A DNA stretch of 33,750 bases from an uncultured Oscillospiraceae bacterium (GTDB taxonomy: Bacteria > Bacillota > Clostridia > Oscillospirales > Oscillospiraceae), in NCBI GenBank assembly GCA_947632155.1, contig CANROF010000028.1:1-33750 (forward strand). The letters are read 5' to 3'. The translations under genes and the position numbers were made by a program. Below are positions 4,403 through 28,552 of this stretch, piece by piece; position 1 is the stretch's first letter, and every line of letters begins with the position of its first letter. Under the pieces are notes generated by a model, which did no database searches, was not told where the DNA came from, and worked only from the letters and a program-made list of their open reading frames with translations.

Positions 4403-5233
4403 TCAGGCCAGCGTCTCCGCCAGCCACTCCCGGGCGGAGGGAAGCCACCCGCTGTTCCGGGCGGCGGCGGGGGTCAGGGCGTTGTTGGTCTGCGCGTCCG
4501 CCGTGGCCAGGCCGTGGACGCCCTGGGGGTAGATGTGCAGCTCCATGGGCACGCGGGCACGCGACAGGGCCATGGCGTAAAGCAGGGAGTTCTCCACGGG
4601 GACGTTGCCGTCCGAGGCCGTATGCCACAAAAAGGTGGGGGGCGTCTTGTCCGTCACCAGCTTTTCGCAGGAGAATCTGGCGGCGGCCTCCCCCTCCGGG
4701 TACGCGCCCAGCAGGTATTCAAAGCTCTTTTTGTGGGAAAACGCCGGGTCCGTGGTGATCACCGGGTAGCACAGCACCGAGGCCGCCGGCCGGTGGGCCC
4801 GGGGGAAGCGGGCCCGGACCTCCGGCCAGTCCCGGGCGCCCACGTAGTGGGCCGCCAGGTGTCCCCCCGCCGAAAAGCCCATGACCGCCGTCCGGCCCAG
4901 GTCACAGTGGAGCCTGCCGGCGTTTTGCTCCATCCAGTCGAAGGCGGCGGCCACCTCCAAAAGCTGCGCCGGGAACCGGTGGGGCGCCACCGAGTAGGTC
5001 AGCACGAAGACGTTGAAGCCCGCCGGCAGAAAGTGGAAGGCCACGGGCTCCGCCTCCCGCCCGCTGCACATCATGTAGGCCCCGCCGGGGCAGATCAGCA
5101 GGCACGGGCGCCTTTGGTCCTCCCGGCGCAGCTCCGCCAGGTTGTCGGGCAGGTAGAGGGTGAGGAGCGGGTCGCGCCCGTCCTCCCCGGTAAACGGGTA
5201 GAAATCTTTTAAATGGACGGTTTCGTAAAGCAT
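4403..5233 (-). CDS. Alpha/beta-hydrolase, carbohydrate-esterase-like
   Basis: The 276-residue product has the alpha/beta-hydrolase fold of bacterial acetyl esterases and acetylxylan-esterase-like proteins. The oxyanion-hole segment CPGGAY is at residues 48-53. The nucleophile elbow GFSAGGH puts the catalytic Ser at 121, the acid is probably Asp208 (TASDGNVP) and the base His240 (GVHG). There is no signal peptide, so it should act in the cytoplasm. It is the last gene of the main operon and starts 1 bp after the stop of the GH42-like gene, so the two are translationally coupled. It probably removes acetyl or other acyl groups from imported oligosaccharides; the substrate is inferred from context only. 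Confidence 0.82.
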   Translation of the reverse strand: MLYETVHLKDFYPFTGEDGRDPLLTLYLPDNLAELRREDQRRPCLLICPGGAYMMCSGREAEPVAFHFLPAGFNVFVLTYSVAPHRFPAQLLEVAAAFDWMEQNAGRLHCDLGRTAVMGFSAGGHLAAHYVGARDWPEVRARFPRAHRPAASVLCYPVITTDPAFSHKKSFEYLLGAYPEGEAAARFSCEKLVTDKTPPTFLWHTASDGNVPVENSLLYAMALSRARVPMELHIYPQGVHGLATADAQTNNALTPAAARNSGWLPSAREWLAETLA

Positions 5234-7313: not shown

Positions 7314-9887
7314 CTATAACGTCATCAGAAGCGTCTTTATCTGCTTGGGCGCGAAGGTGAGCGGGATGCCGCCGTCAACGGGCGCGGGCTCCGTGACGGG
7401 CCTCTCCAAAAGGTCCGTCTCCCGCCAGGCCCTCACCGGGGCGTCCGTGTGGAGCACGATCCTGTTCTCTTCCCCGCGGGTGTTGTAGAGCCTCAGGATA
7501 AGGCCGTCGCCCGCCTCCCATTTTTTGAGGGCCGTGCTCCAGACGCCCGCGCCCTCCACGGAAAAGAGGGACCGCGCCGTACATCCCTCCCCCGCGCTCC
7601 CCGCGGCGGAGGGGTCGAGCTGCGCGGCAACCATATCCCCCGAGGCGTACTGGTAGGCCTCGCGCTCCGCCCCGTCAAGGTCGTCCGCGGGGCCGACGCG
7701 GAGCGTATACGCGGCGGTGTTGACGCCCAGGCACTGGGCGTCCGGCGTGGAGAACACGCCCCAGTCGCCCATTTGGTCCACGCACCGGAGCAGGTTGACG
7801 CAAAGGGTATTGCTGCCGTCCCGCAGGACCTCGTACTCATGCAGGCCCCGGGTGGCCACGACCAGGGCGTTCTCCCGGTCCCGCAGCGCCGCAAAGGACT
7901 GCATACGCTGTTCGTTGGTGGGCCACGTCCAGGCGGGGCGCGTCCGGATCTCGCGCTCCAGGATGTCGAACTGTCCGCTTGCCAGGACGGTCCGCGTCCG
8001 GATGCCGTTCCTGAATACGGCCCGCAGTCTATGGCACCCGGAGGCGTTGCGCATCTCAACGAAAATGCCGATGCTTCGGCTGAAGCTGGTGAGCGTGACG
8101 TCCGTCTCGATCCGGAAGGGCGCCTTTTCCTGGGAATACGCCCCGCTGACGCGGTCATAGCCGGTCGAGAGATACAGCGTGTGGCTGACGCGGAAGGTCA
8201 CGTGGTCGCGGCCGGCCTCCTTGAGCGCTATCCCCGCCCGGCTGTCCTCCGAGGTCACCGCCGGGGCGCCGTTGCCCCTGTACAGGTACTCGTCGCCCAC
8301 GTCGGCGGTGTCCTCATAGAGATTGAGGTCCCGCCAGACCCTGCCGGTGGCCTTGTCGGTGACGGTCAGGCTTCCGTTATCCTCGATGTAGAGGGACACC
8401 CACCTGTTTTCCGCCGCGCGGCCGGTGTGGCGCAGCTCCCGGGGCTTTACGGGGCGGGAGGTCACGTAATAGATCCCGCAGCCAAAGGCCGGGACATCCC
8501 GGGCGGCAAAGCGGAACCGGCATCGCTTTACATAGGTCACCTTGCGGAACGAATCCCGGGGCAGGCGGTATGTAAAGGTGTGGGGCAGGACCTCCAGGGG
8601 CGCGGCCAGCGCCGTCCCACTCCGGTCGGTGATGACAAGGTCCTCCGTGTCGGCCGTCTCGGGCAGGTCCACCTCCGCCGTCACCAGGCCGCTGCGGGGG
8701 TAGATGGTCGTATTGAATACCGCCACCGGCACTCCCAGCCCGGGACGGACCGGGAGCTTTTCCGACAGCGTCTCCAGGGCCCGCTTTACGATGCTGTCGC
8801 TCACCTGCAGCACCTTTTCAAACCGGGGGAGCATTTCCCGGTGGACCTCGTCGAGGCCGCATCCGCAGATGGAATCGTGGGCGTGATTTTTGAGCAGCGT
8901 CTTCCAGGCGTAGTTCAGGAAATCCCCGGGGTATTCCCCCGAGACGAGATACGCCATGGCCCCCAGGGGCTCGGCCCGCCGCTCCAGGGCGTTCTGGGCG
9001 GCGTGGTTTTTCTGCTTGAGGTAGATGCGGGAGCTGGCCGTGGAGATGAGCAGTCCGAAGCCGTTGGTATTCTGCCCGGCCAGCTCCTCCCGAATCACCG
9101 GATACCGGTCCATGTCCGGCCTCAGGGCGTCAAAATATTCCGACAGATTGCTCAGCACAAAGCGAACGCCCTGGTCCGCCGCGGCGTTCATCGCCCGGAG
9201 CGCCCGGGGCAGGTCCGTCTGCACCGGCTGATGGTCCCCGCCGTTCATGCCCAGATATTCCCGTGTCTTAGAGGCGCCGCGGAAGGCCCCCAGGAGCTTG
9301 CTCCCCCGGGCCCCCGCCGCCGTCCTTTCCACGGGGAGCTCGGCGGCGTTGTTGTACCAGGGCGTGAAATGCCCGCCCAGGACCCGGCTGCCGTCCGGCG
9401 CCTCCCACTGGACCTCCGCCATATTCGTCACACCGCGGCCAAAGACCACCGTGTCGATGCCGCAGCCCCGCAGGATCTGGGGCATCTGGGATATATTCCC
9501 AAAGCTGTCCGGCAGGTAGCCAGTCCTCTCCACCGGTACGCCCAGCTCCTCCCCCAGGCGCAGGCCCATCATCATATTGCGGACGTTGGCCTCGTCGCTT
9601 GTCAGGTACTCGTCCTGAAGGATGTACCAGGGGCCGACCCTTATCCGTCCCTGACGGATAAGGGCCAGGAGCCTGTCCCGCATATGGGGCTTTATCTCCA
9701 GGTAATCCTCTAAAACGATCATCTGGCCGTCCAGGTGGAAGTACTTGAATTCGGCGTCCCGCTCCATGGTATCCATGAGGCTGTCCATCAGCTCCACCAG
9801 CCGGAAGCGGTGCTGCTCAAAGGGCATGTACCACTCTCTGTCCCAGTGGGTGTGCGGTACGATATGGACGATCTCTTTTTCTGCCAT
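7314..9887 (-). CDS. GH38 alpha-mannosidase, MngB-like subgroup
   Basis: The 857-residue product is a glycoside hydrolase family 38 enzyme, which releases alpha-linked mannose using a bound zinc ion. The zinc motif HTHWDREW gives His14 and Asp16. The nucleophile is Asp127 in LPDSFGN. A third zinc ligand, His337, is in NHAHDSICGCGLDEVH, a form I associate with the MngB (mannosyl-glycerate hydrolase) and streptococcal GH38 group. There is no signal peptide, so it acts on imported substrate. I prefer the ATG at 9887, with GGTGAC a few bases upstream; an in-frame TTG at 9905 would add six residues but has a poor ribosome site. The gene lies between a solute-binding protein and the GH42-like enzyme in one operon. 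Confidence 0.9.
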   Translation of the reverse strand: MAEKEIVHIVPHTHWDREWYMPFEQHRFRLVELMDSLMDTMERDAEFKYFHLDGQMIVLEDYLEIKPHMRDRLLALIRQGRIRVGPWYILQDEYLTSDEANVRNMMMGLRLGEELGVPVERTGYLPDSFGNISQMPQILRGCGIDTVVFGRGVTNMAEVQWEAPDGSRVLGGHFTPWYNNAAELPVERTAAGARGSKLLGAFRGASKTREYLGMNGGDHQPVQTDLPRALRAMNAAADQGVRFVLSNLSEYFDALRPDMDRYPVIREELAGQNTNGFGLLISTASSRIYLKQKNHAAQNALERRAEPLGAMAYLVSGEYPGDFLNYAWKTLLKNHAHDSICGCGLDEVHREMLPRFEKVLQVSDSIVKRALETLSEKLPVRPGLGVPVAVFNTTIYPRSGLVTAEVDLPETADTEDLVITDRSGTALAAPLEVLPHTFTYRLPRDSFRKVTYVKRCRFRFAARDVPAFGCGIYYVTSRPVKPRELRHTGRAAENRWVSLYIEDNGSLTVTDKATGRVWRDLNLYEDTADVGDEYLYRGNGAPAVTSEDSRAGIALKEAGRDHVTFRVSHTLYLSTGYDRVSGAYSQEKAPFRIETDVTLTSFSRSIGIFVEMRNASGCHRLRAVFRNGIRTRTVLASGQFDILEREIRTRPAWTWPTNEQRMQSFAALRDRENALVVATRGLHEYEVLRDGSNTLCVNLLRCVDQMGDWGVFSTPDAQCLGVNTAAYTLRVGPADDLDGAEREAYQYASGDMVAAQLDPSAAGSAGEGCTARSLFSVEGAGVWSTALKKWEAGDGLILRLYNTRGEENRIVLHTDAPVRAWRETDLLERPVTEPAPVDGGIPLTFAPKQIKTLLMTL

Positions 9888-9925
9888 TCTGTCACCAATT
9901 TCCAAATTGTTTATATCCCCGCCCG

Positions 9926-11467
9926 TCAGCCGGCCGGCTGTCTGGTGGAGTTGATGACCTCGTCGATGAGCGTCTCCACCACCGTGCGGTTGGATTCGAT
10001 CATGCTGGCGGCGTCGGCGGCGGGGTCCCGGGCCACGGGCTTGAAGATGGGGGTGATGGTGCTCTGCTCAAACTCGGTGGCGATGCGGCTGTACATGAAG
10101 AGCGGGTCCGTCACAAGGTTGGGCAGGATATACTCGTCCAGCATCCGGGCGGACTCGTCGTCCCGGTAATAGAGGTCGGAGACTTCCTTCTGCCAAATGT
10201 CGTACTCGGAGTACGAGCAGGCCGCCAGGGCCTCCAAGATGAGGCCGGTGGCCTCCGGGTTGTCGATGGAGCGGGGGACGCAGACGATGGGGGTGTTGTG
10301 GTCGATGGCGCTGTAGTACCGGTCCACGTCCGGGCCCATGGGGATGGGCACCAGGCCGAAGTCGTCCTCCATATCCCGCAGGGCCTGGCCGCGGGTGGTG
10401 AGGTTGAAGTAGAAGGTGACCTGGCCGTCGATGAACCGCTGGGTGCACATGCTGGAGTCGCCGCCGCCGTAGTAGTAGGTCCCGGGGGTGGAGAACATGT
10501 TCTTCATGGTGGTGAGGGTGGGGATCACGTTCTCGTCGGTCATGGCGTATCTCACCATACCCTCGTCGTCCACCCGGAACATGCTCTGGCCGTTTGCCAG
10601 GAACATGGCGGTGAAGGCGCCGTCCAGGCCCCCGGTGACGGAGTAGATGTCGCTGTTGCCAAACTCGCCGTCGCCCTCCACGTCCTTCATGCCGTGGCTC
10701 AGAAGCTCCCCGAACGTCTGCCAGTTCCAGTTGCCCTCCGCCATCAGGTCGTAGGGGCTGGTGAGATTCAGCTCATCCACCAGGCGCTTGTTGAAATAGA
10801 GGCAGAAGCCGTGGGTGTAGGGGTTGGCGAACATGGCGGAGGCGCCGTGGCGGACGCCGGACTTCAGCACGGCGGACTCGTCATAGAGCTTCAGCCAGTG
10901 GTCCTGGGTGAAGTCCACATAGGGGAGGGTGCTCATGTCGTAGAGGTAGTCGCCCACCTGGAATTTGCCGAAGTTGAAGAGCGTCACGTCCATGATGTCG
11001 GCGATCTTCTCGCCGGACATGATGAGCATGTAGTTTTCGTTGAAGAAGCTGGTGGGGTCGTAATATTCGTAGGTGATCTTGCAGTTGAACTTGTCCTCGA
11101 TGGCCTTGTTCCGGGCCAGGATGGCGTCAGAGAGCTCGGAGGCGCCGGGCTCCATGATGGGGCGGTCGTCCACGCCGTAGTAGGCGGCCTCGGCGATAAC
11201 GAACTCATAGCCGCCCAGGTCCACGTCCGGCATGGTATCAAGGTAGGCGTAGGGGTTTTCCGGCGCCGGGTCCTCCCCGCCGGGCTCCTCCGGGTCCTGG
11301 CCGCCGGGGTTGGGGTCCGTGCCGGGGGTATCGCCCGGCGTACCGTTCATGTCGGAGGGCGTCTGGGTCCCGTTCCCCCCGTCTCCGGCGGTACCGCCGC
11401 CTCCGCAGGCGGCAAGGCAGGCCGCGAGCATGGCGGCGCAAAGAAGTAAGCTTATGACCTTTTTCAT
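9926..11467 (-). CDS. Sugar ABC transporter solute-binding lipoprotein
   Basis: This 513-residue protein begins with a lipoprotein signal, lipobox L-A-A-C with Cys21, followed by a flexible Gly/Asp/Pro-rich linker to about residue 80. The rest resembles family-1 extracellular solute-binding proteins, which present oligosaccharides to MalF/MalG-type permeases. The ATG at 11467 fits the signal sequence and has GGAG upstream; the 31 codons in frame before it look like leader read-through. It follows the permease at 11557 by 89 bp and precedes the GH38 gene. It is the second of two solute-binding proteins in the operon and the only lipidated one. Confidence 0.85.
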   Translation of the reverse strand: MKKVISLLLCAAMLAACLAACGGGGTAGDGGNGTQTPSDMNGTPGDTPGTDPNPGGQDPEEPGGEDPAPENPYAYLDTMPDVDLGGYEFVIAEAAYYGVDDRPIMEPGASELSDAILARNKAIEDKFNCKITYEYYDPTSFFNENYMLIMSGEKIADIMDVTLFNFGKFQVGDYLYDMSTLPYVDFTQDHWLKLYDESAVLKSGVRHGASAMFANPYTHGFCLYFNKRLVDELNLTSPYDLMAEGNWNWQTFGELLSHGMKDVEGDGEFGNSDIYSVTGGLDGAFTAMFLANGQSMFRVDDEGMVRYAMTDENVIPTLTTMKNMFSTPGTYYYGGGDSSMCTQRFIDGQVTFYFNLTTRGQALRDMEDDFGLVPIPMGPDVDRYYSAIDHNTPIVCVPRSIDNPEATGLILEALAACSYSEYDIWQKEVSDLYYRDDESARMLDEYILPNLVTDPLFMYSRIATEFEQSTITPIFKPVARDPAADAASMIESNRTVVETLIDEVINSTRQPAG

Positions 11468-11556
11468 GGGTAGTCTCCACGCCGGAGCGGCACCGGCAAT
11501 ACATTTATAAATGAAAACGGACGCCGCGAAATTATCCGTTTCCATGCTGGACCGGA

Positions 11557-12483
11557 TCACTGTCCCACAATACCGCTTCGCTCGATGCCCTGGATGAGCT
11601 TCTTCTGGAAAATCAGGTAGAAGATGAAAAGCGGCGTCACGGTCATGATGACCGCGGTGTTCTGCATGATGGAGGACATCTTGGTCCCCTTGGTAATGGC
11701 CTCGGTGGAAATGGCGGTGACCTTGGTCAGGATCGTGGGCAGCACTGCCATGTTCCGGTTAAAGAGCCCGGAATAGAAGGTGTCCGTCCATTGCCAGGCG
11801 AAGGACAGCAGGAAGATGGAGATGAGCATGGGCTGGGCGACGGGCAGGATGATGCGGAAGAACGTCCTGATGGGGTCGCAGCCGTCCAGGGTAGCGGCCT
11901 CGTTCAGCTCCCGGGGCACGCCCTTGAAAAACTGGCGCATGACGAAGATGTAGAGCCCGTTTTTCAGGCCCGTGGCCGTCATGGACAGCATCGCCGAGGG
12001 CAGCACCGTCTCCACCAGCTTCAGGCTCCCCACGCCCGCCGCGTCCAGGAGCCCGTAGATGTCGAAATACCGGAACTCCATGTAGAGGGCCAGCGAGATG
12101 GTCTGGGGCGGGATGATGATGGTGGCGATGGCCATGAGGAAGAAGAACGTCCTGCCGCGGAATTTGAATTTCGCAAAGCCGTAGCCCGCCATGCAGCACA
12201 CGAAGGTCTGGAGCGTGGCGCAGACGGTGGAGATAATGAGGGAGTTCCGGAACGCCGGCCAGTACCCGCCGTACTGAAGGACCCTCCGGATGTTGTCCAG
12301 GGTCGGCGCCTGGGGCACCATCCAGACGGTGGGGTTTTGCAGGTCCGCGGGGCTCATGAACATCATGACGATCTTCTGCATGAACGGGAAGAGGATCACG
12401 TAGGAGAGCCCAAGGAGCAGGATGAACCGGAAGGCCGGCCACACCAGCCTTACAGGCGAGGGCCTCGGTTTTTTTGTTTTCAT
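11557..12483 (-). CDS. ABC sugar transporter permease, MalG/UgpE type
   Basis: The 308-residue product has six predicted membrane segments and a binding-protein-dependent transport EAA loop at about residues 191-217 (ELNEAATLDGC, ending in LPVAQP). This loop contacts the ATPase. Its partner is the permease directly upstream, and together they form the second membrane channel of the operon. The ATG at 12483 follows AGGAGG by 8 bp, which decides the start over an upstream in-frame ATG. No ATPase gene is present in the window, so an MsmK/UgpC-like subunit encoded elsewhere is expected. Confidence 0.88.
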   Translation of the reverse strand: MKTKKPRPSPVRLVWPAFRFILLLGLSYVILFPFMQKIVMMFMSPADLQNPTVWMVPQAPTLDNIRRVLQYGGYWPAFRNSLIISTVCATLQTFVCCMAGYGFAKFKFRGRTFFFLMAIATIIIPPQTISLALYMEFRYFDIYGLLDAAGVGSLKLVETVLPSAMLSMTATGLKNGLYIFVMRQFFKGVPRELNEAATLDGCDPIRTFFRIILPVAQPMLISIFLLSFAWQWTDTFYSGLFNRNMAVLPTILTKVTAISTEAITKGTKMSSIMQNTAVIMTVTPLFIFYLIFQKKLIQGIERSGIVGQ

Positions 12484-12494
12484 GACAGCACCTC

Positions 12495-13436
12495 CTAATC
12501 CCGCTCCTGGTAGAACGTGAACCTGTAGCAGATAAGGGCCACGCCCGCCAGGACCACCACCACCAAAATGAGATAGAGCCACGCCATGGCGGAGGCGGCG
12601 TTGTAGTTCATCTTGTTGAAGCCCACGTCGTCGATGAGCGCCATGATGGGGTTATCCGACCGGGTAAAGCCGTCGATGACGGTGTAGATGATGTTGACGA
12701 AAATGATGGGGCTCAGCATGGGGACGGTGATCTTCCAAAAGGACTCCCACCCGCTGGCGCCGTCCACGTCGGCGGCCTCGTAGATCTCCGGGGAGATGCT
12801 CTGGAGGCCCGACAGGAAGAGGATGATCTGCACGCCGGAGTAGTTGACGATGCTGTAGATGTTGTTCACCAGCTCCACGATGAAGTCCACCACGGCGGCG
12901 GGGATGTACATCTGCTGGAGCATGAATTTGATGTTGGAGATGTCAAACCCTCCGGCCACGGTGGTGGAGGCGCCCGTCTCGATGCCGGCGGCGCTGCCCA
13001 TGCTCTCCAGCATGGCGTTGGACATGTCCGCCTTCAGCACGATGCCCGTGGTCACGATGACCGGCAGGAAGAAGATGGCGCGGAAAAAGCCCCGGCCGCG
13101 CATCTTCTGATTCAAAAGCACCGCGATGAAGAGGCTGAAGAGGATGATGGCCGGGCTTTGCAAAAGGAGCTTGCCCAGCAGCTCCAGCGTGTCCCGCAGG
13201 AAGGTGGGGTGCGTGAAGAGGGCGTAGCTGTAGCCGGCGCCCCCCACCCAGCTAAGCTCATAGCCGTCCGCCCCCATGGTGATGTCGTTGAGGCTGTACC
13301 GGAAGGCGTTGACGATGACCGGAACGTAGATGAGCAGGAAGCCCACCACGAAGGGCGCGATGAAAAACCACCCGTAAAGGCCGTTTTTGCGCTGAAGAGC
13401 GCCGGTCCGCTGCTTTTTCGTTTTGACGCGCTTCAT
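12495..13436 (-). CDS. ABC sugar transporter permease, MalF/UgpA type
   Basis: The 313-residue protein has six membrane segments and an EAA loop at about residues 216-243 (EIYEAADVDGA, ending in VPMLSP). A long segment of about 55 residues (137-192), rich in Gly, Ser and Thr, is inserted between the central membrane helices. It is longer than the corresponding loop of the other MalF-type permease in this operon and may contact a binding protein. The ATG at 13436 overlaps the previous stop as ATGA and has GGGAGG upstream, showing tight coupling to the DUF5696-like gene. The gap to the next permease is 11 bp. Confidence 0.88.
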   Translation of the reverse strand: MKRVKTKKQRTGALQRKNGLYGWFFIAPFVVGFLLIYVPVIVNAFRYSLNDITMGADGYELSWVGGAGYSYALFTHPTFLRDTLELLGKLLLQSPAIILFSLFIAVLLNQKMRGRGFFRAIFFLPVIVTTGIVLKADMSNAMLESMGSAAGIETGASTTVAGGFDISNIKFMLQQMYIPAAVVDFIVELVNNIYSIVNYSGVQIILFLSGLQSISPEIYEAADVDGASGWESFWKITVPMLSPIIFVNIIYTVIDGFTRSDNPIMALIDDVGFNKMNYNAASAMAWLYLILVVVVLAGVALICYRFTFYQERD

Positions 13437-16033
13437 TCCGCCGCCTCCCTGTCCACCCGGACGTAGTCCTGGGCCTTCACCGTGACCGCGCCGTCCGTGT
13501 AGTCGCGGTCCGTAAAATTCACGTAGATGACCGTGCCGTTCTGGTACTCCACCCGGGAGACGCCCTCCGCCAGGTCCCGGTGGGAAACCATGACCACGTC
13601 CCTCAGGTCCCCGACGGCCCGGTCCACCTGCCTGTAGCACTCCAGGAGCTTGTCCCGCCAGGTATCGTAGTCCACGGAGTAGAGGTCCGCCTGGCGGCTT
13701 ATTTTCAGCAGGTCCGTATTTTCGAACGCCAGCTCGATGTAGAGCCCGGCGCCGCCCTCGATGGTCTTCAACAGCTCCGTCTGGTAGTCTCCGGAGAGGT
13801 TGATGGGGGCGGTGGTGTAGTCGATGGTCCCGTGGAGGACCATCTGGAGGAAGGGCACCGAGCCGTCCGCGTCCGGGTAGCCGCTGGCCGCCAGGGGCGC
13901 CTCCAGAAGGCAGGAGACGTACTCATACACATACCGGTTGGTCCCGACGGTCATGAGGTCGTAGCTCCCCGAGGCCCGCCGCAGGAGCTCCTGGACGTAC
14001 CTCTGGGCCTCCGCGCGGCTGACGCCGTGCCGGGTGCTCTTGTCGCTGTTGAGATTTCCGCCCAGCGTCCCCACCGAAAGGCCCGTGAGGCCCAGCTTGC
14101 CGTAGGAGGCGTCGAAGCTCTCATAAAACTCCAGCATCGCCGCGGGGCGGAGGGTATACTTGAATTTCCGCTCGTTCATAAGGCCGGAGCTCAGGCGGAC
14201 CTCGTTGTAGCCGGAGCAGGTCTTGTCCAGCATCCGGCTGGTGTCGGAGGCGGCGGTGAAGCCGTCGAAGAGGGCGGAGCCCCCCACGTAGGCGAAGTCC
14301 GCGTCGAAGTAGAGCCCCACGCCCAGCTCCGAAAGGGTCCCCTCCAGGTCCCGGAGGGCGGACTTCCCGCCCAGCACCCGGGGTATTTTGGCGGAGGTAT
14401 ACGCCTTTTCGTCAAGCCCGGAGGAGGTCCACCCCAGATACCGCAGGTCCAGATCTCCCACGCCGCCCTCCGTGAGCTCCACGGCGATCTTGCCGGCGTC
14501 CTCAAAGGACGTGAGGGGAGACTTGCGGGTGACGGGGATGAAAAGGAACTCGTCCTCGTGCTCGACGCTGCCGTAGAGCCCCACCACCAGCCGGAGCCCC
14601 TCCCCCTCCACCCGGGGCGCCAGCGCCAGGCTCTCCCGGTAATAGGCCGCCATCTCCGAATAGCCGGAGCCCCGCGGCATGGGGACATAGGCTACGCGGT
14701 AGGTCCCGTCGTAGGGGGTCCTGTCCGCGATGGTCCAGGCGTACTGGGTGTTCACGTCCTTGTACTCAAAGCTGTCATAGTCGTGGTAGGACATCGCCGT
14801 GCCCGCTCTGGCGTAGCCGCTGACGTTCCCGCCGGAGTTGGCGATGATGTCCGTCATGGCCGCCCCCTCCTCCACCACGGCGAAGAGCGACCCACCGTCC
14901 GTGACGATGCCGAACACCGGCAGGGACGCCGTCATCAGGTGCTCATAGCCCGGGGTGTAGGTCAGCGCCCGGTCGTAGCCGTAGATGGGGATGCGTATGT
15001 CGTTGCCCAGCTTGTCCCCGTCCCGGTTGAAGCCCATGACGGCGCCGCTGCCGTCGGGGATGAGGATGTACCCCTCGTCGGTATACGGGGCGGCGCCGAA
15101 ATACTCCAGGACCCCGATCTCCAGCAGGGTAAAGTTCTCCTCGTCGTAGGAGATGAGCGAGGTGGGGACGCTGACGTTGAGCCGCCCGTCCTCCAGCTCG
15201 TACTGGACGGAGATCTCAAACCGGGGGCTCACGGTGACGTTCTCGGCGGCCCCCAGGGCCTCCAGGTCCGCGTCCATGTCCTCAAAGGTATACCCCGCGG
15301 TGGCGAGATACCCCTCCAGCTCGGTCTTCTCCCGTTCCGTCACCGTCCGGAGGACGTAGATGGCCTGGGTGTCCACCACGGGGAAGCGCTCCCGAATCAG
15401 CGCCAACTGCGATTCCTCCGTGGTTTCCGGGTCATAGAGCCGGTAGAAGACCTTCATGCGGGATACGCCCCGGGAGGGCAGCAGCTCCAGAATGCTCTCA
15501 AACCGCGCCGCCGGAAGCGCCTCCGGCAGGAGCGTGCGCTGCTGGGCCCGGCCGATGACCATATTGACCCGCAGGCCCTTTTCCAGGGGCTCCACGGTGT
15601 ACTGGCCCTTGGCGATACACTCCGGGAAGCTGAAGATCTCCGCCGTCTTCTGCTGGCTGTCCATGTAGGAGAGCCTTATCTGAGAGGCGATGCGCTGCTT
15701 CTGGCTGTCCACCGTCCTGGCGTTGGCGGCAAGGTCCCAGGGCGTGGAGAAATAGACGGACTCCCCTGCCCTGAGGGCGATGTCCCCGGTGGTTTCGTCA
15801 AAATAGAGGGTCAGGTCCCCCTCCGCGGCCGCCTCCGTCATGGCCTCCAGCCGCTCCTGGGCGGAGGCGTAGTCCGGGAGCTTCTCCGCGTGGGTCCTGG
15901 GGGTCCGGGCCTCCCCCGCGGCGGGGGACGCCGCCTCCGGCTCCCTGGGCGGCAATGCAGGGGCGCCGCCGCAGGAGCTAAGGAGGAGCGTCAGGAGGCA
16001 AAGGGCCGCGCACAGCCTTCGTTTTTTATTCAT
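13433..16033 (-). CDS. Large lipoprotein, DUF5696-like
   Basis: This 866-residue protein has a lipoprotein signal with lipobox L-S-S-C (Cys21), so it should be tethered to the outer face of the membrane. The linker to about residue 50 is Pro/Ala/Glu-rich. The body is mixed alpha/beta; I recognise it as resembling DUF5696 proteins, which I recall beside YIP1 proteins and sugar ABC permeases in Clostridia and Paenibacillus. The central part (about 490-760), with alternating strands and Asp/Glu-rich turns, could be a TIM-barrel glycoside hydrolase fold, but I can assign no catalytic residues. It follows the YIP1 gene by 16 bp and overlaps the next permease by 4 bp, so a role in substrate capture or processing at the importer is likely. 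Confidence 0.65.
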   Translation of the reverse strand: MNKKRRLCAALCLLTLLLSSCGGAPALPPREPEAASPAAGEARTPRTHAEKLPDYASAQERLEAMTEAAAEGDLTLYFDETTGDIALRAGESVYFSTPWDLAANARTVDSQKQRIASQIRLSYMDSQQKTAEIFSFPECIAKGQYTVEPLEKGLRVNMVIGRAQQRTLLPEALPAARFESILELLPSRGVSRMKVFYRLYDPETTEESQLALIRERFPVVDTQAIYVLRTVTEREKTELEGYLATAGYTFEDMDADLEALGAAENVTVSPRFEISVQYELEDGRLNVSVPTSLISYDEENFTLLEIGVLEYFGAAPYTDEGYILIPDGSGAVMGFNRDGDKLGNDIRIPIYGYDRALTYTPGYEHLMTASLPVFGIVTDGGSLFAVVEEGAAMTDIIANSGGNVSGYARAGTAMSYHDYDSFEYKDVNTQYAWTIADRTPYDGTYRVAYVPMPRGSGYSEMAAYYRESLALAPRVEGEGLRLVVGLYGSVEHEDEFLFIPVTRKSPLTSFEDAGKIAVELTEGGVGDLDLRYLGWTSSGLDEKAYTSAKIPRVLGGKSALRDLEGTLSELGVGLYFDADFAYVGGSALFDGFTAASDTSRMLDKTCSGYNEVRLSSGLMNERKFKYTLRPAAMLEFYESFDASYGKLGLTGLSVGTLGGNLNSDKSTRHGVSRAEAQRYVQELLRRASGSYDLMTVGTNRYVYEYVSCLLEAPLAASGYPDADGSVPFLQMVLHGTIDYTTAPINLSGDYQTELLKTIEGGAGLYIELAFENTDLLKISRQADLYSVDYDTWRDKLLECYRQVDRAVGDLRDVVMVSHRDLAEGVSRVEYQNGTVIYVNFTDRDYTDGAVTVKAQDYVRVDREAAE

Positions 16034-16049
16034 ATGCCTTCACCTCCCC

Positions 16050-18215
16050 TTATAGCCTGAACGTGATCTCGTTATAGACGTTGGTCACCGTGGAGATCAT
16101 CTGTCCAATGAGATTGACGAACAGGAGCATCAAAAAGACGATGACGATCATGCCCACCAGTGTCAGGGACACGGCGATCACATTGGAGCCGAACTGGTAG
16201 TCGTGGGTGGACAAAATCGCGCAGAACAGGAGGAACGCCGCCCACAGATACCCGATGGCGAAGAAGAAGTCCACGAACATGACCTCATTTCGCGTGATGA
16301 AGTTGCTCAGCACCACCGCCGGGAGGGTGAAGAACACGATGGGCAGCAGCGCGTAGCAGGAGGCGACGTACACGTCCTTCAGGCTCCCCTCCCCGTACAT
16401 GAAGCTGGTGAGGCACCGGTTGGCCACGCACCAGATGGCCACGGCCCCCAGCATCACCAGGAGATTCACCGGCAGATTGTAGTGTACCGACGTCCGGCCG
16501 GTGTATACATAGCCCATGGACACGCCCCGGAAGAGCAGGGAGATCAGCGTCAGCGCCAGGATGACCGTGGCCGCCCGGACGCTGCCGCGCCTGGCGCGCT
16601 TTAAGTCCCAGAAGCCCTTGAAGGGGTGGAAGATCACGTAAAAGGCGTACATGAGCTCCTGCCCCATGGTCCGCCTGGCGCCGGCCTCGGTGGGCGTTTT
16701 GCCGTTGTACCGGCCAGCGAAGCGGAAAAAGCGGGAGATGAGGAAGCACAGGAGCACCACTGCCACGGGGATGAGCAGGATGTGATCCCCCAGGATCCCC
16801 CTGCGGTACTCCGAGTAGGCCCGGGAGTAGTCCTCCACGTCGTTGGCCAGCTTGAAGTACCGCATGGCCTCCTTATATTCGCCCTTTCGCAGCATGGCCG
16901 TGCCGATGCCGATGTTGGCGATGTCGAAGTTGGCGTTCTCCAGGAGGATCTGCCGGTAGACGGGCACGGATTCCTCGTACTGCCGCGCATTGGTCAGGTG
17001 TATGGCCTCCTGGACCAGGGCCCCGTAGCCGGTGGGCTCGAAAACGGTGACCTCCCCCGCCGTCTTGTCCAGGGCGACGATCCGGTTGGCGCCGTCATAT
17101 TCAATGGCCGCCAACTGCCGGAAGAGGCCCTCCTGCTGGCCCGTGCCGCCGAAGGCGTAGAGGAGGCTCCCCCGCTCGTTGTAGCAGAAGATCTTCCCGC
17201 GCTTCTGGTCGGCCAGGGCGTACACCCCGTCGGAGCCCACGGCCACGTCCACGATGCTGGAGGGGCCGTAGTAGATGTCGGTGTTGGTGGTGTTGCCGTC
17301 GCTGGAGACGGCGATCTCCACGTCGCCGCCGGGCGGGAAGGCGTCGCCGCGGACGAGGACGTCCTCGCCGCTGGGGTTGAGCTTCTTGATCATGGCGTAC
17401 CGGTCGTCCGTGCTCCCGGTCTGGATGGTCCGGATGACCGCGTCCAGATTGGAGTAGGTGGCGGTGACGTAGAGGAAGCCCTTTTCGTCGATGCTGATGT
17501 TGTTGTAGTTGGTGGGGACGTAGCTCTGGGTCCGGCGGCGCTGCTCCTTGGTCATGAATTTCCGCCAGAGCCGGTCGAGGACGGAGACGCCCACCTTCTG
17601 GGCGCCGATGAAGGTGGAGAACTCTCCCCGCTCGTTGAGGGCCACCACGCCGTAGGTGTTGCCCGCGGAGACGATGAACATCCGCCCCGCCTTATCCACG
17701 GCCAGCTTCGTGGGGATGTAGGAGAAGTCCGCCGGCAGCAGGCTCGACTGGGGCCTTCCGATGACGCGGGTGCAGTTGAGCTCCCGGTCAAAGACGTAGA
17801 TGTTGACGCCGGTGGAGTCCGCCACGTAGAGCTCGCCCCCCTCGGTCATATAGAGCCCCGTGGGCGCCTTCAGGGAGTACTCCGTCCCCTCAAAGGTGAA
17901 GCCGGAGACTGTCCTCACCGCGGAGAAGTCGGCGCTCACCGCGATGACGCGCCCGTTGCCGGTGTCGGCGATGTAGATGTTGCCGTCGCTGTCCAGGCAC
18001 AGATCGTCCGGCGACGACAGCGCCGAGAGCCCCAGGTCGGAGCCGCTGACGATGCGCCCCGGCACGTAGGCGTGGGGCGAGGGCACCGGCTCCCCCTCGT
18101 AGCTGTAGGAGTAGGTGGAGTACGGCACGTTGTTGACCGCCGAGGAGGCCAGGGGCATGGACAAAACGGTCGCTAAAAGCGTCAGGCAGAATACGGTCCT
18201 TTTTAGCCTTTTCAC
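16050..18215 (-). CDS. Beta-propeller, TPR and YIP1-domain membrane protein
   Basis: The 721-residue product starts with a signal peptide (about residues 1-26). An NHL-like propeller follows at about 60-395, with repeated blades such as SPDDLCLDSDGNIYIADTGN and APTGLYMTEGGELYVADS. A TPR-like helical repeat lies at about 400-470 (QYEESVPVYRQILLE, GEYKEAMRYFKLA). A membrane helix is at 477-497 and a YIP1-type multi-helix membrane domain at about 518-705. Topology suggests an external propeller carried on a membrane base. GTG at 18215, preceded by GGAGGG, is the start; the longer in-frame extension overlaps the permease and is rejected. It lies between the first permease pair and the lipoprotein gene. 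Its function is unknown; a scaffold or sensor for the importer is my inference. Confidence 0.75.
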   Translation of the reverse strand: MKRLKRTVFCLTLLATVLSMPLASSAVNNVPYSTYSYSYEGEPVPSPHAYVPGRIVSGSDLGLSALSSPDDLCLDSDGNIYIADTGNGRVIAVSADFSAVRTVSGFTFEGTEYSLKAPTGLYMTEGGELYVADSTGVNIYVFDRELNCTRVIGRPQSSLLPADFSYIPTKLAVDKAGRMFIVSAGNTYGVVALNERGEFSTFIGAQKVGVSVLDRLWRKFMTKEQRRRTQSYVPTNYNNISIDEKGFLYVTATYSNLDAVIRTIQTGSTDDRYAMIKKLNPSGEDVLVRGDAFPPGGDVEIAVSSDGNTTNTDIYYGPSSIVDVAVGSDGVYALADQKRGKIFCYNERGSLLYAFGGTGQQEGLFRQLAAIEYDGANRIVALDKTAGEVTVFEPTGYGALVQEAIHLTNARQYEESVPVYRQILLENANFDIANIGIGTAMLRKGEYKEAMRYFKLANDVEDYSRAYSEYRRGILGDHILLIPVAVVLLCFLISRFFRFAGRYNGKTPTEAGARRTMGQELMYAFYVIFHPFKGFWDLKRARRGSVRAATVILALTLISLLFRGVSMGYVYTGRTSVHYNLPVNLLVMLGAVAIWCVANRCLTSFMYGEGSLKDVYVASCYALLPIVFFTLPAVVLSNFITRNEVMFVDFFFAIGYLWAAFLLFCAILSTHDYQFGSNVIAVSLTLVGMIVIVFLMLLFVNLIGQMISTVTNVYNEITFRL

Positions 18216-18232
18216 GGTATCCCTCCGTTTCC

Positions 18233-19099
18233 TCAGTCCTTCATGCCGGACGTGGACAGAGTCTCCACGATCTTCGACTGGGTGAACACAAAGAGGACGA
18301 TGGGCACGATCATCATCAGCACCGCCGCGGCGGCCGCCGCGCCCACCCGGGTCACGCCCCCGGAGAGCACCTGGTTGAGGGCGTAATTCAGGGGCTTCAA
18401 GTCCTCCCGGTAGATGTAGCTGGTGTTCGCCAGATTCCAAAGGCCCTGGAAGGAGAAGATGATCAGCGTCAGCCACGCCGGCCGCACCATGGGCATCACG
18501 ACCCGGAAGAAGATGCGAAACTCACTGGCCCCGTCGATGCGCGCCGCCTCTAAGACGCTGTCCGGCACCATCACCTCCATGAACTGCTTCATGAGGTAGA
18601 GGCCCAGAGACGAGCCGAAGGCCGGGACCACCAGCGACCACAGGGTGTCGATCCACCCTAACTTCGACATCACCAGGAAGTTGGGGATGGCGGTGACGGC
18701 GGTGTTGAACATAAGGGACAGCACCACCAGGTTAAAGAGGAATTTCTTCCCCTTGAATTTGAGCTTGCACAGGGCGTAGGCGCACATGGAGGACAGCACC
18801 ACATGGCCCAGGGTACCGGCAATGGACACAAAGAGCGTGTTGGCCAGGTACCTGGAAAACGGCACCACGGAGTCGTCCAGGATGCGAAAGAGGTCCTTGA
18901 AGTTGGAAAGGGTGGGATTCTCCACGAAGAAGCGGGGCGGATAGACCCACAGCTCGTCCGCCGGCTTGAAGGCGGTGCATATGGCGTAGATCATGGGCAG
19001 CGCCATAAACGCGCCGAAGATAAAGAGGAATATGCCGATCCATATGTCTCCGGCCAGGGACCTGTTCAGGCGCTTGGGGCGGTATTTCACTTTTTTCAT
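18233..19099 (-). CDS. ABC sugar transporter permease, MalG type
   Basis: This 288-residue, six-helix permease carries an EAA loop at about residues 182-207 (VLEAARIDGASEF, ending in MPMVRP). It pairs with the MalF-type permease immediately upstream to form the first channel of the operon. The ATG at 19099 comes 1 bp after the upstream TGA (TGATATG), so translation is coupled; the separate ribosome site is weak. The stop lies 17 bp before the GTG of the YIP1 gene. Confidence 0.88.
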   Translation of the reverse strand: MKKVKYRPKRLNRSLAGDIWIGIFLFIFGAFMALPMIYAICTAFKPADELWVYPPRFFVENPTLSNFKDLFRILDDSVVPFSRYLANTLFVSIAGTLGHVVLSSMCAYALCKLKFKGKKFLFNLVVLSLMFNTAVTAIPNFLVMSKLGWIDTLWSLVVPAFGSSLGLYLMKQFMEVMVPDSVLEAARIDGASEFRIFFRVVMPMVRPAWLTLIIFSFQGLWNLANTSYIYREDLKPLNYALNQVLSGGVTRVGAAAAAAVLMMIVPIVLFVFTQSKIVETLSTSGMKD

Positions 19100-19100
19100 A

Positions 19101-19997
19101 TCAGTTCCCCACTTTCGAGATCAGCTTCCGAATCACGTGGTTGCTGACGATCATGACCACGAACAGCACCGTGGCGATGGCCGAGGCTATCCCCAGCTCA
19201 TAGCGGGTGGAGCCGTAATCCTGCAGGTGATTGATGACCGTATGCGCGGCGTAATTGGTGGAGGGGAACCCCGCGAGCTGCGTCACGATGGTCCCCACGC
19301 CGAAGGCCGAGGTGATGCTGAGCACCGCGCTGAGGATCATCTGGGGCCGCATGATGGGCAGGGTGATGTACCACAGCTCCTGCCAGCGGTTTTTGATGCC
19401 GTCCAGGGCGCCGGCCTCATAATAGGTCCTGTCCACGCCCTGAAAGCCCGCGATGAACGTCAGGAAGCTGGTGCCCAGACTGCTCCACAGGCCCACGACG
19501 GCCACGATGGGCAGGATATACTGCTCGTCCCGCAGCCAGACGATGGGACTGGAGATGACCCCCAGCTTCATGAGGAAGCCGTTCAGATACCCGTAGGCGT
19601 CGCCGCTGAAGATGGCCCGCCAGACCAGGTACATGCTCCCCGTGATGGACGGCGCGTAGAAAATGAGCGTCACGATGGCCCTGGCCCGGGGGCGGAGCTC
19701 GTTGATGAACCAGGCGAACATCAGGCAGAGGAGATACCCGATGGGCCCGATGATCAGCGCCAGGATGAAGGTGTTCCCGATGGATTTGATGAAGATGTTG
19801 TCCTCCAGGAACAGCCACTCATAGTTCTCCATAAAGACGAAGTCCGGCTTTTGCATCCCGTTGAAGTTCGTGAAGCTGATGCAAATGGAGATGATGACCG
19901 GGAGGATGGTAAAGGTGAAAAACACGATATAATACGGCGCCACAAACGCCAGGATGGTCCCCGGCTTTGTGCCCAGGCGGCGTTCTTTTTTCTTCAC
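19101..19997 (-). CDS. ABC sugar transporter permease, MalF type
   Basis: The 298-residue product has six membrane helices and an EAA loop at about residues 190-218 (TYYEAGALDGIKN, ending in LPIMRP). It is the partner of the downstream MalG-type permease. GTG at 19997 is the start, preceded by GAGGAGG; the longer in-frame extension overlaps the solute-binding gene and reads as low-complexity Arg/Pro. It follows the solute-binding fusion gene by 13 bp. Confidence 0.88.
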   Translation of the reverse strand: MKKKERRLGTKPGTILAFVAPYYIVFFTFTILPVIISICISFTNFNGMQKPDFVFMENYEWLFLEDNIFIKSIGNTFILALIIGPIGYLLCLMFAWFINELRPRARAIVTLIFYAPSITGSMYLVWRAIFSGDAYGYLNGFLMKLGVISSPIVWLRDEQYILPIVAVVGLWSSLGTSFLTFIAGFQGVDRTYYEAGALDGIKNRWQELWYITLPIMRPQMILSAVLSITSAFGVGTIVTQLAGFPSTNYAAHTVINHLQDYGSTRYELGIASAIATVLFVVMIVSNHVIRKLISKVGN

Positions 19998-20010
19998 GCT
20001 GTCCACCTCC

Positions 20011-22887
20011 TCAATCCAAACCGAATTCCCGTCTCTTGCGGGCGATCTCCTCATTGAGCATCTGCACCTGGGACAAAAGCGAGGTCGCCGGGTCCTTCCC
20101 CGCCGTATAGACGTCGGCAAAGGCGAAGTCGATAGCTCTGACGGTGTAATAGCCGCCGGGGACCTCCGGCGTGCCCCGCAGGGCCCCGATCTGGGCCTTC
20201 AGGGCCGCGTACTCGCTGTCCGTCCAGGACATGCTCTCCATGGCCGCCAAATTGGCCGTGGCCTGCTTGGCGGCCACGCCCAGGACGCTCTCCACCTCCT
20301 GGGCGTACCGGGACTGCGTCTCCTCCCGGGTGACCCACTCGATGAATTTCCAGGCCTTGTCCCGGTCCTTGGCGGCGCTGAGCATCATGATGCCGCTGGC
20401 CGCCGCGGGAGAGGTGTTGTTGACGGCGCCGTCGGGCATCACCGTCCCGGGGACCGGAGCCATGGCCCAAAGGCCCTTTATCTCCGAGGCGAAGATGGTC
20501 AACTGGTTGTACATGGTATATTCCACGATGCCCACAGGCATCTCGCCGCTGCGGAAGCGGTTGGCGAAGTCGTAGTCCACCGGGAAGCGGTAGAGCGTAA
20601 AGAACTCCGCCATCCGCTCAAAGCAGCTCACGTCCAGGTCCTCCGAAAGGGCGCTGGCGGAGAAGCTTTCGTTGTACAGCGACCCGCCGTTCTGGTAGAG
20701 GAACAGCTCCAGCCCGTAGAGATTCATGTTGGACGCGGTGGAGGTCTTGGCGTTTACGGGGAAGCCCACGTCCAGGTTTTGCTGCTGGAGCTCCCAGACC
20801 ACCTCGTAGAACTCGTCCCAGGTGGCGGGGACCTCCAGGCCCAGCTCCTCAAAAATGTCGGTGCGATAGAACATCATGAGGAAGGTCATCGTCTCCGGCA
20901 GGGCGTAGGTGCTCCCGTTGAAGGTGAAGGGCGTCATGGCCGCGGGGTGGAATCTCTCGACGACCTCATCGAAGCCCGGCATGGAGCTCAGGTCCACCGC
21001 CTGGCCGCGGATGGCGAAGTCGATGGGCGTGTTGGAGCCCACGTTCATCATCACGTCCGGGCCCGTCCCCGCCAGCACCGAGGGGATCAGCGCGTCGGCG
21101 GACACGAGCTGGATATTCACCTTGAGGCCCGTCTCCGGCGTGAAATACTGCTCCGACAGCCGCTGCATGATCTGGGCCTGCTCCCGTCCGTTGGTCATCC
21201 AGACGGTGATGACATTGCCCTCCTCATAGTCCTCCCTGGTGAGCTCGGCGGCGAAGGACTGGTAGTCTTCAAAAAAGCTGAGAAAGAAGCGCTTGATCTT
21301 GAAAAGGAGGTTGGAAAAGAAGCTGTCCCCCGCGTCCGGGACCTCTTTGGACGCCGGGACGAAATAGATGCGGTCCACGTCCAGCGGCTGGGCCATGACC
21401 TCCTGGAGCCAGGTGCCCAGGGAGGAGAGGTTGTCCTTGTAGGTGGTGAAGAGCTCGGAGATCATCTCCGAATCGTCCTCGATCTGGTCTAAAATGATGA
21501 GGATCTTGTTGATGGCGTTGGTGAAGTCCCCCTTGACGCGAGTCTCCTCATGGAGCCGGTCCACGGCGGCCTGGAGCGCCGCCCGCTGGACCCGGAAGTC
21601 CTCCAGCACGTCGGGGATCTGTTTCTCGAACTCATAGGTGCGGTAGATGTCCGGCGTGGGGCCGGTGAGCATCAAGATCCGGCGGTAGTCGGCGTTCAGC
21701 GCCGTGAGCGACGCCTGGACCCGGGAGATGATGTCCGCCAGGTCCCCCAGGACCACCTCCATGCTCACGGTGTGCGTCCCGGCCGTCAGGTAAAAGAGGT
21801 ACGGCGTGTCGCCGCCCAGGGGCGCGACCTCCCAGGAGGAGGTGTAGTCGAACCGCAGGACGGCGGCCTCCGCAAAGGGGCACCGGCCGTCGATGTAGAG
21901 CTTCCGGGAGACAAAGCCGCCGGAGTAGGCGTCCTGCTTGAAGCGGGGGGCGATCTTGTAATAGCCGCTCTCGGGGACCTGGATCTCCCAGGTCAGCGTC
22001 TGCCCGGCCTTGCTCCACTTCTCGCCGCTGATGATGTTGAGGCGCGTCTTCACCGGGTGCTGGGGGTAGGTGGCGGAGGAGCTCTTGTCGGAGGTGGGGT
22101 AGATGGTGAAGGTGGATTTCTTCAACGTGTCCTCCGCCTCCACGCAAAGGATCTCCGCTTCCCCGCCGGCGGCGTCCTCCCCCGCGTTTTTGAGGTATTC
22201 CTCATATGTGGGCAGCTTCACCTCCGGGTAGAGCCGGAGGCCGTAGATCTGCAGCCGCTCCTTGTTGGCCTCTAAGGCGAGGGTGTGCTCCCCCGCCGTC
22301 AAATAGAGGGCCAGATCCTCCGCCACAAAGCCGTCGGCGTCGTGAAGCACATACGTCATCCGCTCCGGCTGCTCGATCTGCCGGGGGGTCACGTCGTTGC
22401 CCTTGGAGTTGCGGGTGATCTCCCCGTCCACGTAGACCCGGGGGAACTCGATGTACCGCGCCTCCTCATAGGGGACCTCGCCGTCCAGAAGCAGCGTCCG
22501 CTCGATGGAGCCGCCCTTGGACACGGTGGGGTAATAGTCCACCGCCAACTGGTAATAGCCGGGCTCCTCCACCCGGAACCGCCACGTGACGGTGCTGTCG
22601 CTGCCCGTCAGCACCGAGCCGTCCCCCGCGTCCGTCACGTCGCCTTCGCTCCGGGCGTAGGAGGCGGCGTCCAGCAGGAGCTCCCGGGAGGCGGACGGCG
22701 CCTGCGTATGGGCGGCGCGGTAGTCGCCGTAGCTTTCATACCGGCTGCCCAAAAGCCGCGGCGAGGCGCCGGCGCTCTCCTCCTCCCGGGCGTCCGCCGC
22801 GCCGGCGGACACCGGCAGCATGGCCGCGCACACGGAAAATACCAATAAAAGCGTCAGCGCCCGCACGGCGCGTCTGTTCCTGCCCAC
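20011..22887 (-). CDS. Solute-binding protein fused to two carbohydrate-binding-like domains
   Basis: The 958-residue protein opens the main operon. A signal peptide (about 1-31) lacks a lipobox. Two beta-sandwich modules follow at about 70-222 and 245-380. Both contain a W-x-F/I-x-V-x-x-(P/S)-G-Y-Y core and end in YLTAG-x-HT, as in CBM6/CBM35-like or malectin-like modules. A helical region spans about 385-540. The C-terminal part (about 555-945) is a family-1 extracellular solute-binding domain. It should bind a glycan outside the cell and hand it to the permeases encoded next. It is about twice the length of a normal solute-binding protein. GTG at 22887 is the start, with GGTGGTGAT upstream. 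How it stays at the cell surface without a lipid anchor is unclear. Confidence 0.8.
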   Translation of the reverse strand: MGRNRRAVRALTLLLVFSVCAAMLPVSAGAADAREEESAGASPRLLGSRYESYGDYRAAHTQAPSASRELLLDAASYARSEGDVTDAGDGSVLTGSDSTVTWRFRVEEPGYYQLAVDYYPTVSKGGSIERTLLLDGEVPYEEARYIEFPRVYVDGEITRNSKGNDVTPRQIEQPERMTYVLHDADGFVAEDLALYLTAGEHTLALEANKERLQIYGLRLYPEVKLPTYEEYLKNAGEDAAGGEAEILCVEAEDTLKKSTFTIYPTSDKSSSATYPQHPVKTRLNIISGEKWSKAGQTLTWEIQVPESGYYKIAPRFKQDAYSGGFVSRKLYIDGRCPFAEAAVLRFDYTSSWEVAPLGGDTPYLFYLTAGTHTVSMEVVLGDLADIISRVQASLTALNADYRRILMLTGPTPDIYRTYEFEKQIPDVLEDFRVQRAALQAAVDRLHEETRVKGDFTNAINKILIILDQIEDDSEMISELFTTYKDNLSSLGTWLQEVMAQPLDVDRIYFVPASKEVPDAGDSFFSNLLFKIKRFFLSFFEDYQSFAAELTREDYEEGNVITVWMTNGREQAQIMQRLSEQYFTPETGLKVNIQLVSADALIPSVLAGTGPDVMMNVGSNTPIDFAIRGQAVDLSSMPGFDEVVERFHPAAMTPFTFNGSTYALPETMTFLMMFYRTDIFEELGLEVPATWDEFYEVVWELQQQNLDVGFPVNAKTSTASNMNLYGLELFLYQNGGSLYNESFSASALSEDLDVSCFERMAEFFTLYRFPVDYDFANRFRSGEMPVGIVEYTMYNQLTIFASEIKGLWAMAPVPGTVMPDGAVNNTSPAAASGIMMLSAAKDRDKAWKFIEWVTREETQSRYAQEVESVLGVAAKQATANLAAMESMSWTDSEYAALKAQIGALRGTPEVPGGYYTVRAIDFAFADVYTAGKDPATSLLSQVQMLNEEIARKRREFGLD

Positions 22888-28531: not shown

Positions 28532-28552
28532 GAGCCGCACCTCTTTTCTTTT

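Follow-up and report, generated by a model that had tools for sequence, protein, structure and literature searches.

Genomic organization of the gene block

An eight-gene block identified in an uncultured Oscillospiraceae bacterium probably encodes a machine, little studied so far, that imports fragments of complex sugars. Largely unchanged, the block is found again in many Gram-positive bacteria, frequently beside genes for polysaccharide-degrading enzymes. The gene layout is not a product of chance; it recurs in other genomes far beyond chance expectation, and the linkage of the genes is real and far more general than one genome. The idea that the products assemble physically into a single glycan-capturing machine is a good hypothesis.

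The window, meaning the whole analyzed stretch of 33,750 bp, is an entire contig (C28; GenBank CANROF010000028.1) of a 2.5-Mb genome (GCA_947632155.1). Gene calls and Pfam matches located the block on the minus strand at 9926..22887 and agreed with the first-pass annotation on its content (two solute-binding proteins, two permease pairs, YIP1, and DUF5696) and on the order of the genes. In the direction of transcription, SBP1 (20011..22887, 958 aa), which matched SBP_bac_1 at 2e-28 and showed weak, sub-cut-off similarity to CBM_35 and Golvesin_C in its N-terminal half, is followed by perm1A (19101..19997; BPD_transp_1 at 1.9e-9) and perm1B (18233..19099; BPD_transp_1 at 7.7e-14), two sugar-ABC-type permeases with an EAA motif. 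Next come YIP1 (16050..18215; NHL and Yip1 in Pfam) and the distantly GH129-like DUF5696 lipoprotein (13433..16033; PF18952 at 3.1e-149). The remaining genes encode perm2A (12495..13436) and perm2B (11557..12483; BPD_transp_1), both with an EAA loop, and the lipoprotein solute-binding protein SBP2 (9926..11467; SBP_bac_8 at 1e-6, SBP_bac_1 below the cut-off). In the window proteins, a lipobox was recognized by eye on DUF5696 and SBP2. The block had been described as tightly packed, with gaps of 1–17 bp except for one of 89 bp, and this holds for most junctions (SBP1 to perm1A, 13 bp; perm1A to perm1B, 1 bp; perm1B to YIP1, 17 bp; YIP1 to DUF5696, 16 bp; perm2A to perm2B, 11 bp; perm2B to SBP2, 89 bp), but DUF5696 and perm2A overlap by 4 bp. 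Similarly, the eight genes of the proposed operon are all present, but the operon runs on past SBP2 into genes for a GH38 enzyme (after 20 bp), a GH42-like enzyme (15 bp), and an esterase (1 bp). Scans for promoters and terminators gave results close to the shuffled expectation.

These downstream genes, also on the minus strand, encode an alpha-mannosidase-type GH38 enzyme (7314..9905; Pfam; match to 3lvt at E 4.1e-161), a GH42-like enzyme (5235..7298; GH42 at 1.9e-6 and GH42M at 1.7e-9, no PDB match at 0.001 with phmmer), and an alpha/beta-hydrolase esterase (4403..5233; BD-FAE and Abhydrolase_3), which the NCBIfam arylesterase and pectin acetylesterase models matched below their cut-offs. 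A second GH38 alpha-mannosidase was assigned by Pfam at 28553..31519 on the same strand. All four enzymes lack a hydrophobic N-terminus and therefore probably act inside the cell. The window also encodes a D-lyxose isomerase. Divergent from SBP1, a plus-strand gene (23040..24104) combines a GntR-type helix-turn-helix with a LacI-type sensor domain according to Pfam, and its product is likely the local regulator. Beyond it, the minus strand carries a gene whose translation shows a surface protein with a tandem pair of repeats and a hydrophobic segment at the C-terminus (24178..25662); it had no Pfam match and may represent a new glycan-binding repeat. It also carries a gene encoding a lipoprotein with pectate-lyase-like domains (25739..28540; PF12708, with weak PDB matches to epimerase-type proteins). 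At the other end of the contig, an S component resembling ECF-type riboflavin transporters (3706-4302, minus strand) lies beside the operon end, and a surface protein left open at the contig end (1-3429, minus strand) bears a SpaA domain and, at its N-terminus, a series of Cys/His-rich repeats. Elsewhere, the same genome holds the module a second time in a divergent form (L014, G000:C17:10000-29000), with YIP1 split in two; its components were 29–42 percent identical to those of the window, and SBP2 was not detected in it.

Permeases and predicted energy coupling

CUT1 ABC sugar importers are systems of the MalEFG/MsmEFG type that work with a shared ATPase. The window encodes solute-binding proteins together with BPD_transp_1 permease pairs carrying EAA loops, the combination by which we assigned the transporters to this class, with the window perm2A scoring 26.1 bits against a Pfam cut-off of 26.4 and so falling 0.3 bits short of it. 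The EAA loop, which mediates coupling to the ATPase, was recognized in all four permease families (107–122 rows each). In perm2A, most relatives carry Glu where the other families have Asp. We considered that perm2A had lost its coupling loop, as a strict pattern found it in only 10 of 121 rows, and rejected this idea because Glu mostly sits where the pattern wanted Asp.

The earlier claim that the block encodes no ATPase stands, as none was seen among the window genes examined. The further claim that energy is supplied in trans fits three OB_MalK matches found elsewhere in the genome, with coupling itself at the level of a prediction. Two of these lie beside frames with EAA motifs, and the third is situated among galactokinase and GH53 genes with no EAA-motif frames adjoining; this OB_MalK protein without permease neighbours is a candidate for the shared ATPase.

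Recurrence and gene order across Bacillota

The set of loci comprised 39 of the 65 places with DUF5696 above 300 bits in a draw of 398 Bacillota genomes, three further Bacillota loci, and the best 80 of at least 571 confirmed stretches from a second genome scan. With profiles derived from the module, 122 loci could be annotated, the window among them, or 119 after removal of three duplicates (L017=L132, L049=L149, L056=L090), which count once among the 119 loci and in the 80-locus identities and twice in counts on 122 or 123 rows. Two DUF5696-like loci, L081 and L082, are excluded from the module counts, and L006-L013 are likewise uncounted. The gene encoding perm2A lay directly downstream of DUF5696 in every one of the 119 distinct full-length loci, and YIP1 directly upstream in 118, the exception (L123) having only 242 bp of contig on that side. 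DUF5696-perm2A-perm2B was found in 116/119 loci and the whole order SBP1-1A-1B-YIP1-DUF5696-2A-2B in 94/119; an SBP2-type gene was present in 90 of the 119 clusters and not found in 29, some of them cut by contig ends. At the junction of DUF5696 and perm2A, stop-to-stop frames overlapped in 113/119 loci. The first-pass annotation would have been contradicted had the central proteins occurred mostly without permeases elsewhere; across the 119 loci, YIP1 and DUF5696 were instead tied to permeases and to each other, and in the 41 genomes full-length DUF5696 came with YIP1 and SBP1.

Twenty-five of the 122 loci departed from the standard order, 13 of them with less than 500 bp of contig upstream. 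The two halves were swapped in five of the 119 loci (L063, L068, L071, L073, L074), perm2B was displaced in the rearranged L065, and SBP1-1A-1B was absent from L054, L060, L084, and L086 despite flanks of 4 kb or more on both sides, as well as from L059, where the upstream flank measured 1.7 kb. In L079 and L080, two module loci of one genome, perm2B was not detected, L080 being one of the 25. These loci encode very large proteins downstream of perm2A (L079:5368-10203, 1611 aa; L080:2480-8074, 1864 aa). The counter-example to the linkage is a small number of shorter DUF5696-like proteins above the Pfam cut-off in G021 and G025; L081 and L082, the two whose flanks were long enough to assess, had no recognizable module gene around them. 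The DUF5696-like proteins of L006, L081, L082, and L010 align for the most part with the last two thirds of the family (its C-terminal side) and are possible sister enzymes.

At the genome level, DUF5696 exceeded 300 bits in 41 of the 398 Bacillota genomes, spread over 19 families, and the Pfam cut-off in 43, two of them barely. All 41 genomes with full-length DUF5696, which are related and do not represent 41 independent events, also matched YIP1 and SBP1 in the same draw. YIP1 at E 1e-20 or better was present in 43/398 genomes, namely the 41 plus G371 (partial) and G495 (weak, NHL-only). SBP1 at E 1e-60 was present in 48/398, comprising the 41 and seven without full-length DUF5696, of which G246, G288, and G223 had a long or partial SBP1 and four a short related SBP; the SBP1 match in G245 was cut by a contig end. 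As the best two or three candidates per genome were scored in this draw, copy numbers derived from it are minima. Patristic distances between the parts of the module correlated at 0.77–0.95 over 39 loci, values that include no species-tree control and lend weak support.

Architecture of YIP1, SBP1, and DUF5696

YIP1 is built of a hydrophobic N-terminus, an NHL propeller, a TPR region, one transmembrane helix, and a five-helix Yip1 domain, as indicated by Pfam, PDB profiles (propeller and TPR), and a transmembrane scan. Membership in the Yip1 family was assigned from the domain score (42.1 bits against a cut-off of 28.6) and the five transmembrane segments that follow the helix on the TPR side. 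The protein is encoded by two adjacent frames in 91 of the 119 distinct loci and by one frame in 27, a split suggesting that its propeller and membrane parts are functionally linked. SBP1 consists of a signal peptide, two sandwich-like regions (weak CBM35/golvesin similarity), a helical region, and a C-terminal SBP domain, and could be aligned along its length with 25 relatives. It matched sugar-binding proteins such as Lin1841 (5ysb, E 1.5e-30), the similarity beginning near profile position 557 of 971, and among the PDB profile matches listed only this SBP part was covered.

The first-pass label "DUF5696-like" named the right family and was too cautious, as the window protein scored 498.8 bits against PF18952 (cut-off 25.6) and is a full member. 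The family profile matched GH129-type structures at E 1.5e-12 to 3.6e-8, among them 5opq (1.5e-12), 8rzg (1.3e-11), 5wzq (2.5e-8), and 5wzn. On 5opq the similarity comprised three collinear stretches, each weak alone. Profile comparison, from which all our statements on its fold derive, identifies DUF5696 as a distant relative of GH129. One of the two catalytic residues of NagBb, the nucleophile Asp330, fits the Asp of the HLDGW motif of that enzyme. This Asp is Ala in entry 5wzq. DUF5696 lacks the GH129 active-site Asp of this motif: the position is acidic in 1 of 122 rows and otherwise occupied by Q, L, T, S, V, M, A, or others. According to excerpts of PMC5698469, the protein of 5opq, ZGAL_3152, is itself GH129-like, with a new family proposed for it, and keeps only Asp435 of the two catalytic residues of NagBb. 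Four other acidic positions in DUF5696 are nearly invariant (D354 in 116/122 rows, D664 in 115/122, position 723 acidic in 117/122, and E759 in 117/122), so that activity through another dyad is conceivable. No acidic residue was invariant in a 39-row alignment of the family. In sum, DUF5696 is alike in sequence profile to the GH129 and GH129-like glycosidases NagBb (5wzn) and ZGAL_3152 (5opq), but differs in having no motif Asp, in its membrane anchor (in the window), and in its tie to permeases. The viral contigs scanned with the window protein contained no DUF5696 relative, and PHROGs had no match for the DUF5696 or YIP1 protein of the window.

Separable halves and multiplied cassettes

The first-pass annotation had noted a nearly symmetrical gene order. 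The order is real, but its halves can also be encoded separately, and two adjacent units therefore describe it better than a single symmetrical one does. Five genomes from two families (f48: G186, G225; f62: G207, G272, G298) carry DUF5696 at 8–22 places each. In the order G186, G225, G207, G272, and G298, we counted 11, 22, 10, 11, and 8 places for DUF5696, 10, 17, 10, 10, and 8 for YIP1, and 6, 10, 4, 4, and 4 for SBP1, the 22 DUF5696 places of G225 overstating its genes owing to a very fragmented assembly. These places were picked by hand: 62 of 80 matches for DUF5696 (the other 18 being treated as additional fragments of genes already counted), 55 of 61 for YIP1 (omitting five C-terminal halves and a 150-aa partial match), and 28 of 30 for SBP1 (after merging two pieces and omitting a short SBP). 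DUF5696 lay within 1.5 kb of 53 of the 55 YIP1 places, but SBP1 lay within 9 kb of only 21 of the 62 DUF5696 places. The multiplied unit is YIP1-DUF5696-2A-2B(-SBP2). Exactly one SBP1 without DUF5696 nearby was found in four of the five genomes, and three in G225. The lone SBP1 of those four genomes belongs to an SBP1-1A-1B operon without the other half. As judged by eye, three of these operons stand in similar, housekeeping-looking surroundings and one beside a GH32-looking gene. A variant order, DUF5696-2A-2B-YIP1-SBP2, with YIP1 after perm2B, was observed at L177:4810-13172.

The components also diverge at different rates. Over 80 loci, mean pairwise identity was 66 percent for perm1A, 63 for perm1B, 50 for perm2A, 49 for perm2B and SBP1, 47 for YIP1, 40 for DUF5696, and 34 for SBP2, so that perm1A and perm1B are the slowest to diverge and SBP2 and DUF5696 the fastest; copies within the same genome showed a similar gradient. 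A slowly changing SBP1-1A-1B and a fast, multiplied remainder suggest that the module combines a common part with a variable one that has multiplied.

Glycan-enzyme neighbours and predicted cargo

The frames flanking 123 loci were clustered and each cluster named from one representative. A GH26 cluster occurred in 46 of the 123 loci, with all 53 copies on the module strand; it was found in 24 of the 30 Paenibacillus/Cohnella loci and 19 of the other 50 among the best 80 of at least 571 stretches, and in three loci of the diverse set. Other flanking clusters corresponded to CBM65, GH5, GH2 mannosidase, GH130, GH113, and GH27, which together with GH26 form a beta-mannan set. By a crude test, an N-terminal hydrophobic segment was present in 24 of 29 CBM65 and 12 of 14 GH5 proteins, and in none of the GH2 (0/13), GH130 (0/12), GH113 (0/7), or GH27 (0/6) proteins. 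GH26 was rare genome-wide in nine module genomes (0–5 matches each), and in four of these it lay within about 4.5 kb of DUF5696. In the diverse loci, the domain tally, based on 81 of 160 same-strand flanking frames, gave GH43, GH10, GH3, GH42, alginate lyase, and others at two or three each; such varied enzymes indicate that the module is not tied to a single glycan.

The beta-mannan set of GH26, GH113, GH130, and GH2 is absent from the window, where GH38 and GH42-like enzymes are encoded instead. The GH38 enzymes and the D-lyxose isomerase suggest alpha-mannosides as cargo, and the window module probably imports a glycan containing alpha-mannose. The glycan role first proposed for the block is consistent with such neighbours both in the window and in its relatives. 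Similar enzymes to those beside many module copies are found in the beta-mannan loci of Faecalibacterium prausnitzii and Roseburia intestinalis. As described in the excerpted text of PMC8262883, those loci combine a LacI-type regulator, a surface GH26, a cytoplasmic GH113 and other enzymes, and ABC uptake of oligosaccharides through one transporter with a 48-kDa binding protein; unlike the module loci, they come with no YIP1 in that text.

Discussion

On balance, we favour a modular importer of complex glycans with two predicted CUT1-type permease pairs, a shared ATPase, and YIP1 and DUF5696 as dedicated partners. SBP1 would pair with perm1A/1B, forming the slower-changing common part, and SBP2 with perm2A/2B. 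The fastest-diverging components, SBP2 and DUF5696, may recognize or present a particular glycan at the membrane, and YIP1, with its propeller and TPR region outside and its Yip1 domain in the membrane, might dock DUF5696 beside the permeases; the roles of these two proteins are proposed from domain resemblance. A MalK/MsmX-type ATPase encoded elsewhere would power both permease pairs, and the signal-less GH38, GH42-like, and esterase enzymes would cut the imported oligosaccharides.

The block could also consist of two ordinary, independent ABC importers for two fragments of one glycan, co-regulated and with YIP1 and DUF5696 as separate accessories, a possible reading that we find rather doubtful. 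It would account for halves that are encoded apart, for SBP1-1A-1B standing alone, and for each half having its own SBP in most loci, and two binding proteins are reported for one mannan transporter in Bifidobacterium (a title cited in PMC8262883). It sits poorly with the 41 genomes in which full-length DUF5696 never appeared without YIP1 and SBP1, and with a gene order kept among DUF5696 rows that are only 17–39 percent identical to the reference rows, where we infer that unconnected importers would have been shuffled more. Another reading, which we regard as unlikely, holds that DUF5696 is an active membrane-anchored (trans)glycosidase that has altered catalytic residues and prepares the glycan for perm2A/2B by trimming it, with YIP1 as its membrane partner. 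The near-loss of an acidic residue from the HLDGW position and the lack of any invariant acid in the 39-row alignment argue against catalysis, although the relation to GH129-type structures, with its collinear stretches on 5opq, and the four nearly invariant acidic positions would be expected of an enzyme.

The Yip1 name refers to membrane traffic in eukaryotes. The presence of this domain might accordingly suggest that the system assembles, exports, or recycles envelope glycans instead of importing nutrients, and the housekeeping-looking surroundings (by eye) of three of the four stand-alone SBP1 operons could be taken the same way. This we consider very improbable, because solute-binding proteins and EAA-loop permeases are characteristic of importers and the neighbouring genes encode catabolic enzymes and LacI-type regulators.

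The favoured modular importer shares with CUT1 importers the solute-binding protein, the two EAA-loop permeases, and an operon devoid of an ATPase, but departs from them in its two permease pairs, usually two SBPs, an SBP that is about 1000 aa long and has additional regions, and the constant company of YIP1 and DUF5696. SusCD systems are the glycan uptake systems of Bacteroidota. The module resembles them as a dedicated set of glycan uptake genes that is multiplied in some genomes, and differs in its ATP-driven permeases at a single membrane; Pfam identified no TonB-dependent SusC or SusD family among the eight module proteins. The comparison with SusCD, raised in the first-pass annotation, gains some force from the expansion in five genomes of two families. 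Carried further, it would make the module a Gram-positive counterpart in logic, an idea we put forward as tentative and more doubtful than not: a common import engine, SBP1-perm1A-perm1B, would work alongside interchangeable receptor cassettes, YIP1-DUF5696-perm2A-perm2B-SBP2, in a single membrane assembly, with ten or more such cassettes in some lineages; a GH129-derived pseudoenzyme would grip the long glycan, a propeller-TPR-Yip1 scaffold would join both permease pairs, and long polysaccharide pieces would enter intact.

The open-licence literature searched, with subscription journals mostly outside it, contained no mention of DUF5696 and no account of the YIP1/SBP combination or of the module as such. 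If the favoured reading is correct, the module would be a widespread uptake system that handles glycans, those of plants among them, in Paenibacillus, Lachnospiraceae, Oscillospiraceae, and thermophilic Clostridia. Roles would then follow for DUF5696 and for the propeller-Yip1 proteins of bacteria, and the Bacillota would have a multiplied, cassette-like answer to SusCD.
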